Positions 17,866 to 22,535 of a stretch of 36,669 nucleotides of DNA are shown piece by piece; positions within the stretch are counted from its first letter, which is position 1, and each line of letters begins with the position of its first letter. Where the stretch lies: positions 1 to 36,669 of the forward strand of contig JAGWZB010000007.1 in NCBI GenBank assembly GCA_018969045.1, written 5' to 3'. The stretch comes from Planctomycetota bacterium. GTDB lineage: Bacteria; Planctomycetota; Planctomycetia; Pirellulales; Pirellulaceae. Under the pieces are notes generated by a model. That model was given only the letters and a program-made list of their open reading frames with translations, was not told the origin of the DNA and made no database searches. Position numbers and translations under genes: made by a program.

Positions 17866-18654
17866 TTGAACATTCTGCTTGCAAACGATGATGGCATTCA
17901 CGCACCAGGCCTACGGGCTCTGAGAATTGCATTGGAGTCTCTAGGTCGCGTCACCGTCGTTGCTCCGGCTACCGAACAAAGCGGTGTCGGTCACTCGATC
18001 ACTTACCTCTCACCCCTCACGTGCAAACAGATATTCGATGGTGAAATTTTTAGAGGTTGGGCCGTCGAAGGCTCACCTGCCGATTGCGTAAAACTGGGAA
18101 TCACCGAGCTGGCACCCAAACCGACCGAGTTGATCGTCAGCGGAATCAATGGTGGTCTCAACGCCGGGATCAACGTCTTGTACTCCGGGACCGTCGCAGC
18201 GGCCATCGAAGGAGCGTTCTTCCGAATCCCTAGCTTTGCGGTCTCCTTGGAAGAAGATCCTCATGCGGATTTCGAAGCCGCAGGATCGATCGCCGTACAA
18301 TTGATCCGCAAGATCCTTGACTACCAAGCCTTGGCTCCAGAACTATACAACATCAACATCTCAACCCAAGCAACACGAGAATACCGCGCAGGAAAAACAC
18401 CCCAGATTCATGTCGTACCCATGGGGGTCCAGCGCTACGGCGACCACTACATCAAACGCCAAGATCCCAAAGGCCGAAACTACTACTGGTCGACCAACGA
18501 TCCACCTCCTGAACCGACCGAGCATGAAACCGATCTGATGGCTTTGGCCCTCGGTGCTGTGACCATTACCCCGTTGCAGTTCGATATGACCAAACGATCC
18601 CAACTGGAGGCCATGAAAGGGTGGAATCTCTCGCTTGGTTCCCAGGAAAACTGA
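17866..18654 (+). CDS. surE: 5'/3'-nucleotidase SurE
   Basis: MNILLANDDGIHAPGLRALRIALE...VVAPATEQSGVGHSIT...VSGINGGLNAGINVLYSGTVAAAIEG; TTG start. Confidence 0.95.
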   Translation: MNILLANDDGIHAPGLRALRIALESLGRVTVVAPATEQSGVGHSITYLSPLTCKQIFDGEIFRGWAVEGSPADCVKLGITELAPKPTELIVSGINGGLNAGINVLYSGTVAAAIEGAFFRIPSFAVSLEEDPHADFEAAGSIAVQLIRKILDYQALAPELYNINISTQATREYRAGKTPQIHVVPMGVQRYGDHYIKRQDPKGRNYYWSTNDPPPEPTEHETDLMALALGAVTITPLQFDMTKRSQLEAMKGWNLSLGSQEN

Positions 18655-18662
18655 TCCGTCCG

Positions 18663-19886
18663 ATGACAAAGACATCCCCATTGATCCTGGAAAACAAAAG
18701 GATCGGCTTCTTGGGCAAGCTCGGTGCAATGACCCGAAAAGAAGCCTGCCAATGGCTTAAGCAATACCAAGTCACCGTCTGCGAGAAACTATCGGGCGAT
18801 CTGGACTTGGTGGTGATCGGAGCCGACGAGATGCCCGATGAAGACATCCAAGCGATGCTCCATGAAAAGCTTCGAGAGCGGATTGGAAACGGAACCACAT
18901 TGCTAATCCATGAACAGGATTTATGGTCGGCACTGGGGCTCGTCGATGACCCATCCCAAAAACAGCTTTACACTCCCGCGATGGTTGCAAGCCTGATCAA
19001 GACTCGCGTCAGCGCCGTGCGCCGCTGGCACCGCATCGGATTGCTTCCAAGCATCAAAGTTGCTCACAAGTTACCCTATTTCGATTTCGAGCAAGTCCAA
19101 TGCGCCAAACAGATCGCCGCATGGACCAAGCAGGGCGCGCGAGTTACCGATCTAAAAAAACAACTCGATGAGTTCGGCGACCGCATCGCAAACCGTAGCT
19201 TGATCGATCTGGATATCCGAATCGATGGCCGCCGTATCCTGCTTTGCGATGAAGGAAAATTGATCGGATCCCAAGGCCAGTTGCATTTGGATTTTGATGA
19301 GCCCTCCGATGGCCAGCACGATCCAGAGGGACCGCCCAGTATCCTGGTGATGGCTCCACCGGGTGGGAATGCAGGACTGCTCGATGTCCAAGACCGGCCA
19401 TCGCTGGAAATCGGGCAAGACAGCGGGACTTGGACCAAGGATGCCATGCTGGCAGCTGCCGAGGAACTCGAAGATGCCGGACGTATCGACGAAGCGATCG
19501 AATGGCACCGAGTGATTTTGGCCAAATATGTTCCTACCGCCGATATCGTTTTTGGTCTGGGGGAATTGCTGCTCAGGTCCGGTGAGGTTCAAGCCGCACG
19601 AGAACGATTCTACAATGCGATCGAAATCGACGAAGACTTTGTCGAAGCCCGAGCCAGTTTGGGCTGCGTGCTGGCCGAAACCGGTCAACTCGATCTAGCT
19701 GTTGCTGCTTTCGAAGGTGCGCTAGCAAAAGATGATCGATACCCCGATGTCCATTACCATCTAGCAAGGTCTCTGGATGAACTCGGACGCAGCGATCAAG
19801 CAACCAAACACTGGTTGAGATTCCTGCAACTCTCACCGCAAAGCCCTTGGGCCGACGAAGCTCTGGAAAGATTGGGTAGAAGCTAA
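18663..19886 (+). CDS. BRCT-like + MerR-type HTH + TPR multidomain protein
   Basis: N-term IGFLGKLGAMTRKEACQWLKQYQVTVCEKLSGDLDLVVIGAD (BRCT-like); YTPAMVASLIKTRVSAVRRWHRIGLLPSIKVAHKLPYFDFEQVQCAKQI (MerR-like HTH); C-terminal TPR repeats. Confidence 0.82.
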   Translation: MTKTSPLILENKRIGFLGKLGAMTRKEACQWLKQYQVTVCEKLSGDLDLVVIGADEMPDEDIQAMLHEKLRERIGNGTTLLIHEQDLWSALGLVDDPSQKQLYTPAMVASLIKTRVSAVRRWHRIGLLPSIKVAHKLPYFDFEQVQCAKQIAAWTKQGARVTDLKKQLDEFGDRIANRSLIDLDIRIDGRRILLCDEGKLIGSQGQLHLDFDEPSDGQHDPEGPPSILVMAPPGGNAGLLDVQDRPSLEIGQDSGTWTKDAMLAAAEELEDAGRIDEAIEWHRVILAKYVPTADIVFGLGELLLRSGEVQAARERFYNAIEIDEDFVEARASLGCVLAETGQLDLAVAAFEGALAKDDRYPDVHYHLARSLDELGRSDQATKHWLRFLQLSPQSPWADEALERLGRS

Positions 19887-19898
19887 GCTAAACCCTCG

Positions 19899-22535
19899 TT
19901 AACGAACTTGACGCTTCGCAGCGCCAGTTGCGATCGGATCGACAATCGGTGGCAAGCTCGGCTTGACCTGCTCCTGGGAATCCGACACTGCAATGGCTAA
20001 CCAACCATACTCCATCTGCAGCTGCGATACCTTCATTCCTTGAGCTAATGGATTGCTCATCAAGGAATCAGCAACCATCGGAATGTTCGTGTTCCCAGCA
20101 AAAACCTTCGTGAATATCGCCCGAATCGGGAACCGATCCTTGGACCCCAACCGATGACCATCAACACTGATCAGCGGATCGCGCTCAAGCGATGCTTGCA
20201 ACCCATCCACCGTGGGGATGTAAGAAGTCTTGACGGTGAAGTTCTTTAACTGAATGCGACCGGTTTGCTCTAAAGAAGCGATCCTAAGTGTCAGCCACAT
20301 TCGGCCCCGATCAAACTCGATAACCATGGGGTGAACATCCATGAATCGGATCACGACATCCTCGGGGGTATCCTCTGGCAACTCGAAAGCCGGTTGCTGA
20401 AGAATCTCCGAGATCTTGTCGGCCAACTGCCGGATCGTCCAATCCCGGTCGGTCGGTATGGCCTGGGCAATCAAGTTGTTGATTGCTGATTGATGCAACT
20501 GCAAAGACAACAAGCTTTCCGAGGGTGCCAAGGGCCTAGGGGTATAAGCAGCGATCTGATTGACCCCTGCAACGCGATACCGCGCGACCAATCGGGTATC
20601 GGTCGACTGCATATCGAGAATCATCGGCTGAAGATCCAGAGCGTGCAGAGGCCCGATGAGCCGCTTGTCGTATTGCTCCTGAGCACGGTCGATGTTGGTC
20701 TGAAGCTGTTTGTTGAACTCATCGTCGGTCTGCTTGGCGATCAGCCGCTGCGAAATCCTCTTGGCAATCGGCTTTTTCTCGTTGAACTCCTGCTTGGCCA
20801 CATAGCGGACCATATCACCAAAGATGGGGAGCTGATCCCAATTGGTCGAGAATTTACGCAGCGATTCCTGAGACTGCACGCTTGCTGGTTGCCCGTTGAT
20901 CGACAGCGAACTGGGATCGACTCTTACCTCTCGAACGGATTGGACTTTGGCGTTGCTAGAATTGTAGAAGGTCGCACCGCTACGACTGCTGCGCGTATTG
21001 GATTGAATGTTGCCATCAAGATTCAAACCCACTTTCCAACCTGTCGTATCGGGTAGAAAATCAATGCGCAAATTGGTTTGTATCTTGCTGGCCCCTTGAG
21101 TGTCGGCCCCGAGGATTTTCTGTTGGACCGGCCGTGTGCTGACTTGATCCCTGGGCAGCAATCGGTTCACAAAATCCTCAGATACACTCAGGCGAACATT
21201 CGCATTGCGATACTGCTGGTTCAGAGCGTTTGCGATCGAGTACTGGGGCTGCGAATCCGAGAACCTCAGCGACTGGATCACCTGAGCAATATCTTCACCA
21301 CAGCGATGCACCGAAACTTCTTCGATCGATTCAATATCCAAAAGCAATTTGCGATAGTCGACCGGACGTACCGTCAACGGACGAATGTTTTCTGCCAGCG
21401 CTTGTATCTCGCGACTGGTAAGCACCTTCTTTTGATCCTCAGAGATCCTGCTGAACGTCAACCGCCCCAGAAATTCCTGAGCGATTTCCATCTGCTCGGC
21501 CGGCTCGAGCACCTGACCGCTGGCAAGACGATCGATTTGATCGAGCAAAAGAAACTCTGTCCAGTTATCAACATCCGAAGTACCTTTTAATGCCCAGCGG
21601 ACCTGCGCCAAATCCTCTGCGAGCCTCGCATAATCCAATTGCGAACCAACCGTCGAGACCAACTTCTCGCCCCCCAGTTTGAGTGAATCGGAATTCATGC
21701 ACTCATGGACCTTGGACCAAACAATCGCCCGACGCCCCACCGCATGGGCCAACTGCGAAACACCGATGGCCTGCTGTGTCTGTGACTCCAAATTCGACTC
21801 CGCCCATGCAAATCCTCGTGCCGCCAGCGCCCGAGCTTGCTCAAGCAACTGGGCGGAACGATCCGAACCGATAGGGATTTGGGCAAACGTCTCAAAGAGT
21901 CGCTGAACATCGCTTGGCCAACCCGCGATTTCCTGCGATTGCAACTGCATGGCAGGATCCATAAGCCCCGAACACTGGGACAAAAGGCTCATCGCAAGTG
22001 GCCAATGGCGATTGCTTTGAACCGAACTCGATACCACCGGACGCTGAAACAGCGGATCTGTCGATTTGGTGACCAAGACCTCTGGGTCCTGAGATGGCGC
22101 TGCCACGGCAGACGAAATGTTGCGAATAGCACCGCCGGTGCTAGATCCCTCTTTGGCCGCTATCCATGCAGTAGGTCGACTCGACTCAAAAGGATTGCTC
22201 CACGGATGCGATACCGGTGCTGTGATCCGAACCCCACTGCTGGGCTCGACCATCGCAATCGATGTCGGGGCAGGAGTTCTATACGTACTCAAATTGGACC
22301 GTACGGCCAAGTCCTGCTGGGAATACGTATCCATCAGGATCGGTTCGGACACGATCTTGGACTTGGCCACCGGGGTTTCGATGGTCTGAACCACCGTAGT
22401 CCTCTCGGGGAATTGGACCCCGCGCTTCTTGGGCGCAACCAAATCCGGCCCAAACAAAAACAAAAAGGAAGCGACGATAGCTGCCAAGAGTGCAAAGATC
22501 CACCCGCTAACACTCTTTGTTGACCTAATCGTCAT
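19899..22535 (-). CDS. Large secreted or membrane-anchored hypothetical protein, planctomycete type
   Basis: 878 aa ORF; N-terminal anchor GWIFALLAAIVASFLFLFGPDLV; no family recognised. Confidence 0.75.
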   Translation of the reverse strand: MTIRSTKSVSGWIFALLAAIVASFLFLFGPDLVAPKKRGVQFPERTTVVQTIETPVAKSKIVSEPILMDTYSQQDLAVRSNLSTYRTPAPTSIAMVEPSSGVRITAPVSHPWSNPFESSRPTAWIAAKEGSSTGGAIRNISSAVAAPSQDPEVLVTKSTDPLFQRPVVSSSVQSNRHWPLAMSLLSQCSGLMDPAMQLQSQEIAGWPSDVQRLFETFAQIPIGSDRSAQLLEQARALAARGFAWAESNLESQTQQAIGVSQLAHAVGRRAIVWSKVHECMNSDSLKLGGEKLVSTVGSQLDYARLAEDLAQVRWALKGTSDVDNWTEFLLLDQIDRLASGQVLEPAEQMEIAQEFLGRLTFSRISEDQKKVLTSREIQALAENIRPLTVRPVDYRKLLLDIESIEEVSVHRCGEDIAQVIQSLRFSDSQPQYSIANALNQQYRNANVRLSVSEDFVNRLLPRDQVSTRPVQQKILGADTQGASKIQTNLRIDFLPDTTGWKVGLNLDGNIQSNTRSSRSGATFYNSSNAKVQSVREVRVDPSSLSINGQPASVQSQESLRKFSTNWDQLPIFGDMVRYVAKQEFNEKKPIAKRISQRLIAKQTDDEFNKQLQTNIDRAQEQYDKRLIGPLHALDLQPMILDMQSTDTRLVARYRVAGVNQIAAYTPRPLAPSESLLSLQLHQSAINNLIAQAIPTDRDWTIRQLADKISEILQQPAFELPEDTPEDVVIRFMDVHPMVIEFDRGRMWLTLRIASLEQTGRIQLKNFTVKTSYIPTVDGLQASLERDPLISVDGHRLGSKDRFPIRAIFTKVFAGNTNIPMVADSLMSNPLAQGMKVSQLQMEYGWLAIAVSDSQEQVKPSLPPIVDPIATGAAKRQVR

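Follow-up and report, generated by a model that had tools for sequence, protein, structure and literature searches.

A conserved planctomycete protein combining BRCT, MerR-type and TPR domains is homologous to proteins encoded beside Ku and is a probable DNA-repair adaptor

What might a protein do that joins a BRCT-like N-terminus to a MerR-type helix-turn-helix (HTH) and a set of TPR repeats? The question is raised by a gene in a 36,669-nt stretch of DNA from a planctomycete of the family Pirellulaceae (contig JAGWZB010000007.1; the whole stretch is called the window below). The preliminary description, made from the letters of the sequence, placed this gene at 18663–19886 on the forward strand, recognized the three domains and suggested a DNA-bound adaptor or regulator. 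The frame is indeed open at that position; an alternative GTG start at 18621 gives a longer reading frame but overlaps the SurE gene, which ends at 18654. The three domains were recovered both by sequence profile and by fold, whereas a fourth small domain (residues 172–213), the order-wide conservation of the gene and the link to Ku and LigD had been missed. The features of the locus are as follows.

17866–18654, forward strand: SurE nucleotidase (PF01975, E = 4e-54), 8 bp upstream of the studied gene.
18663–19886, forward strand: BRCT-MerR-GQ-TPR protein of 407 aa, open frame from the ATG at 18663 to the stop ending at 19886.
18678–18938, forward strand: BRCT domain of the LigA/RFC1 class, residues 6–92 (profile, Pfam in orthologues, Foldseek, pocket alignments).
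18969–19172, forward strand: MerR-type HTH with wing, residues 103–170 (PF13411, orthologues, GlnR/TnrA, fold).
19176–19301, forward strand: GQ domain, small and beta-rich, residues 172–213, ending in GQLHLDF (conservation, profile-profile match).
19302–19436, forward strand: flexible linker, residues 214–258, variable in length and sequence, with pLDDT below 50 over residues 220–254.
19437–19880, forward strand: TPR superhelix and C-terminal helix, residues 259–406 (TPR models, AlphaFold).

Using a set of 53 orthologues for the profile work, we found that Pfam BRCT (PF00533), which is sub-threshold in the window sequence alone (E = 0.19), matches 45 of them, the best at 4.5e-8. The N-terminal family profile matched the BRCT domains of E. 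coli LigA (E = 6.8e-6) and human RFC1 (3.9e-5). AlphaFold gave the window protein a mean pLDDT of 86 and a pTM of 0.49, meaning that the domains are modelled with confidence and their relative placement is uncertain. Because Foldseek against the PDB returned TPR matches only for the full-length model, a separate structure search was run with a model of residues 1–215. This retrieved the BRCT domains of LigA, RFC1, PARP1, REV1 and XRCC1, together with the MerR-DNA complexes of RacA, NmlR, BmrR and GlnR, all with probabilities of 0.97–1.00 and modest E-values (3e-3 to 0.1). The absence of a BRCT fold at the N-terminus, named in the preliminary description as what would overturn its BRCT call, was therefore not what the model showed, and the call stands on orthologues, LigA profile match and fold.

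In sequence profile and fold the domain resembles the single, DNA-binding BRCTs of LigA, RFC1 and PARP1, with which it has in common a G-K-L..M-T/S-R-x-E-A core including the Gly and the Arg that belong to the phosphate site of RFC1. It differs from them in being N-terminal and fused to an HTH and TPRs, whereas the BRCT of LigA or RFC1 is fused to a ligase or a clamp loader, and in lacking, in Pirellulales, the Thr of the TG motif. In yeast Rfc1 the 5′-phosphate is held by Thr166, Gly167, Arg174 and Lys209 (PMC9359705). Alignment showed that the window BRCT keeps the pocket Gly and Arg (G18 and R25) but has L17 in place of the Thr, and that the Lys-bearing segment is remodelled in the window BRCT and the Pirellulales core; the full T-G/Arg/Lys pocket of the DNA-phosphate-binding subclass is accordingly incomplete. 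The Thr was found in none of 52 aligned Pirellulales core BRCTs, in all eight Planctomycetales core copies and in 9 of 14 Ku-linked copies. The lost Thr and the remodelled Lys region make phosphate-end recognition by the window BRCT doubtful; end recognition may be lost in the Pirellulales core BRCTs, and protein binding by the domain is a live alternative. XRCC1, the non-enzymatic eukaryotic BRCT scaffold that is recruited to breaks, is an analogy for how such a protein could work; its fold partners differ and no membership is claimed.

The MerR-type segment is the clearer of the two N-terminal domains in the single sequence: MerR_1 (PF13411) scored above the cut-off there (E = 3.7e-6) and matched all 53 orthologues, and the segment also matched GlnR/TnrA by sequence. 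Orthologues show strong conservation at R120, W122 and R124 and in the PYFDF wing. The MerR assignment was thus upheld, and the modelled segment has a fold of DNA-binding type, as opposed to the missing DNA-binding surface that had been named as contrary evidence. The winged HTH is the same in sequence and fold as that of the regulators GlnR, TnrA, RacA, NmlR and BmrR, but lies between a BRCT and a GQ domain, and neither a coiled-coil dimerization helix nor a ligand domain appears in the AlphaFold model, where a helix (residues 161–170) is followed by the beta-rich GQ domain. Within GQ, G205 and Q206 are invariant in the 53 orthologues and are followed by a conserved F211; a Pfam search with the orthologue segment gave no match. 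As for the TPRs, also correctly recognized beforehand, several TPR models exceeded the cut-off in the single window sequence (to 3e-12), and the region consists of tandem 34-residue helix-turn-helix repeats, modelled as nine helices (pLDDT 87–98) that match consensus-TPR and OGT TPR structures at E of about 1e-7.

An architecture search across Planctomycetes, proposed in the preliminary description, revealed that the gene is order-wide in Pirellulales. All 60 relatives searched encode the protein, mostly at full length, and in a class-wide sample the MerR-GQ part was present in 50 of 50 Pirellulales genomes; the full architecture also occurs in one Planctomycetales family (f22), and several other Planctomycetia families do not carry it. 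Compared with the three nearest species, the whole window gene gave a dN/dS of 0.05–0.08, with dS near saturation. Constraint against the nearest species is tighter on MerR-GQ and TPR than on the BRCT, for which dN/dS is about 0.11–0.14 and which most orthologues keep. Judged by these sequence comparisons, the window gene is a core gene of Pirellulales under purifying selection. At least seven Pirellulales core copies (L104–L109, L116) keep MerR-GQ-TPR and have no BRCT, so the BRCT is dispensable in places. In one genome (G238) the BRCT-less core copy (L104) coexists with a Ku-linked copy that carries a BRCT (L135). A locus of Thermoanaerobaculaceae (L019) initially returned as a relative proved to encode an unrelated TPR protein.

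The strongest indication of function came from outside the class. Ku is the protein that starts the rejoining of broken DNA ends, and the nearest proteobacterial relatives of the window protein are MerR-GQ-TPR proteins on plasmids, encoded right after Ku. Of the 33 full-length relatives on Burkholderiales plasmids, 31 lie 5–235 bp from Ku (match to match), downstream and on the same strand, several overlapping Ku by 4 bp; in one of the two exceptions the match is cut by the record origin with Ku just across it, and in the other, a record without annotation, the vicinity of the gene showed no Ku. Outside the class, 18 genomes of Planctomycetota have a match, which in 16 of them is on the contig and strand of Ku, 0.3–3.4 kb downstream and often with a LigD-matching gene in between (for scale, a chance model kept crude on purpose puts p at about 1e-41). 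The 20 strongest matches in Acidobacteriota comprise 16 located 0.30–0.47 kb downstream of Ku, one adjacent to Ku but divergent and three unlinked; MerR-TPR matches there below about 170 bits (e.g., in G596, G548 and G605) were left out of the count, and these are not beside Ku and look like other paralogues. In Rhizobiaceae the gene order is LigD-Ku-X-hydrolase-XthA (e.g., L198:638-6516, forward strand), where X has a BRCT by family profile (E = 4e-12), a GQ domain, TPRs and a degenerate HTH whose N-terminal half no longer matches the family profile; Pfam called neither BRCT nor MerR in X, and the family profiles alone detect them. The same run suggests that the AP endonuclease XthA is part of the repair locus. 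Two further observations concern Ku loci: a 206-aa TPR-only frame directly after Ku (L132:4093-4710, reverse strand) may be a reduced version of the family's protein, and tandem pairs of Ku genes occur in Planctomycetota (L140:3943-5816 and L184:2641-4462).

These relatives are homologous to the window protein. Profile-profile comparison of Planctomycetota with Burkholderiales gave a probability of 99.0 (hhalign, E = 3e-18) for MerR plus GQ, and 96.9 (E = 1.5e-10) for GQ alone against the same segment of the Ku-linked proteins; by hhalign and tree, the window protein belongs with the Ku-linked MerR-GQ-TPR family across MerR, GQ and TPR. The Ku-adjacent genes of Burkholderiales, Acidobacteriota and Rhizobiaceae annotated ‘tetratricopeptide repeat protein’ encode a MerR-type HTH, GQ and TPRs homologous to those of the window, although the Burkholderiales proteins have no BRCT, the Rhizobiaceae ones have a BRCT and a degenerate HTH, and the window copy is Ku-free. 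A BRCT is carried in two of the four Ku-linked bacterial groups.

Direct adjacency to Ku does not hold for the window gene itself. Bacterial non-homologous end joining (NHEJ) loci, with Ku and LigD, encode members of this family, but in the window genome (93% complete) no match to Ku or to the LigD polymerase was found, and the single-contig relatives G093, G108 and G145 show the same pattern. Ku is rare inside the class (15 of 199 genomes); the core copy was present in all 50 sampled Pirellulales, 45 of which have no Ku, and some class members carry a second, Ku-linked BRCT-MerR-TPR copy (L073, L129, L131, L135, L141). In a tree of 69 sequences, with an assumed Burkholderiales root, bootstrap values not fully settled and the Rhizobiaceae proteins left out, BRCT-less Ku-linked proteins branch first and BRCT-bearing Ku-linked ones next, and the Ku-free core copies of Pirellulales and Planctomycetales, the window protein included, form one clade (99/92) nested among Ku-linked copies.

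Around the window gene the neighbours are SurE and DnaJ, of which SurE is the only stable one: it lies directly upstream in every locus of the window's genus examined and in no other genus examined. SurE is thus a probable co-transcribed neighbour, in this genus only, and was rejected as a functional partner because the linkage is limited to that genus. No shared repair gene was found beside the core copy across the genera examined, and most of its recurring ‘neighbours’ are shadow frames of the gene itself. An 878-aa protein encoded convergently at 19899–22535 of the window (reverse strand) has no Pfam or NCBIfam match, and a membrane-type protein of about 580 aa, also with no Pfam match (L053:1006-2772, reverse strand), recurs near the gene in nine Pirellulales loci.

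Given that relatives in four bacterial groups are encoded directly beside Ku, the window protein is probably a DNA-repair adaptor. ‘DNA-bound adaptor or regulator’ still appears to be the best functional class on architecture and gene context, and within it we favour, with somewhat better than even confidence, a DNA-bound repair adaptor that was ancestrally an end-joining accessory and has been retained in planctomycetes without Ku. We infer DNA binding, partner recruitment and any repair role of the window protein from the same two sources. The BRCT and HTH would place the protein on DNA or a repair complex, the BRCT recognizing a repair partner or the phosphates at DNA ends or nicks and the HTH adding duplex binding, while the TPR superhelix, on its flexible linker, would bring in a partner protein. 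Linkage of the relatives to Ku points to NHEJ as the ancestral pathway, and the family may have arisen, or been long kept, as a Ku/LigD accessory encoded right after Ku. One lineage in Pirellulales and Planctomycetales would then have become an independent core gene; since it persists in genomes without Ku and LigD, it must serve another route there, which could involve LigA or homologous recombination. Against this reading, no repair gene adjoins the window copy, whose sole stable neighbour is SurE, in one genus; the Pirellulales core BRCTs have lost the Thr and remodelled the Lys region, and some core copies have no BRCT; and the proposed history depends on an assumed root and on bootstrap values not fully settled.

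The main rival is a transcriptional regulator in which the HTH would bind promoters (e.g., of repair or surE-operon genes), the BRCT would detect a partner or a sign of damage, and the TPRs would recruit or sequester a co-factor. The universal MerR_1 match, the folds of MerR-DNA complexes, the well-kept HTH of the planctomycetes and the annotation of some Ku-linked relatives as ‘MerR family transcriptional regulator’ all favour it. However, the model has GQ where a MerR regulator would have its dimerization helix or ligand domain; the genes of the relatives follow Ku and are read in its direction, whereas regulators are often encoded divergently; and the Rhizobiaceae proteins keep BRCT, GQ and TPR with the first half of their HTH decayed. 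We regard a regulator as unlikely, at perhaps one chance in four. Less probable still, and by a good deal, is that the window copy no longer takes any part in DNA repair and is a scaffold of a general kind, chromosome-associated or stress-related, linked to stationary-phase metabolism of the SurE type. The constant pairing with SurE in the window's genus, the lost phosphate-pocket Thr, the loss of the BRCT in some relatives and the Ku- and LigD-free genome would fit such a role, but a linkage confined to one genus and absent from every other genus examined cannot explain conservation across the order, and most orthologues keep a BRCT under constraint. That the BRCT resemblance is spurious, or the fusion an accident of a metagenome-assembled contig, might be read from the sub-threshold Pfam match of the window sequence; this was refuted by the same full-length frame in dozens of genomes, single-contig ones included, by the LigA profile match and by a BRCT significant in 45 of 53 members and by fold, which leave it almost no probability.

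If the repair-adaptor reading is right, it bears on how end joining is understood. Every component domain except GQ is already known, as is the NHEJ setting. Open-access literature yielded no paper that connects MerR and TPR with Ku, or BRCT and MerR with Planctomycetes, and a term search of a bacterial NHEJ survey that covers Ku and LigD (PMC7719229) showed no such gene; the earlier statement that the protein has no obvious described function agrees with this, and a description in a subscription paper is possible. Members of the family carry the annotations ‘tetratricopeptide repeat protein’, ‘helix-turn-helix domain-containing protein’ or ‘MerR family transcriptional regulator’. Descriptions of bacterial NHEJ have two proteins, Ku and LigD, and the proposed adaptor is not among them; a conserved gene right after Ku in four groups, with a BRCT in two, suggests a third, scaffold-like component. 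It seems to us an evenly balanced proposition that such an unrecognized component (HTH-GQ-TPR, often with BRCT) is common to the end-joining loci of four or more groups and that planctomycetes made it a core, Ku-independent factor of break repair or chromosome maintenance. Why an end-joining accessory persists, strongly constrained, in almost every Pirellulales genome after the loss of Ku is the question that follows. Sinorhizobium meliloti, a species with existing Ku genetics, has a family member, whose role is therefore open to direct testing; in strain 2011 it is the TPR gene that immediately follows the Ku gene of pSymB (NC_020560.1:1490720-1491802).

Other BRCT proteins were seen in Planctomycetia. 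Four loci (L098–L100 and L117, families f21/f23) encode a protein of about 1100–1200 aa that contains HEAT-like repeats and, internally, a BRCT (Pfam, 1.6e-6); the BRCT-MerR-TPR protein is mostly missing from these families. Three more loci (L101, L102, L103) encode exonuclease (RNase_T) proteins of 317–367 aa with a C-terminal BRCT.
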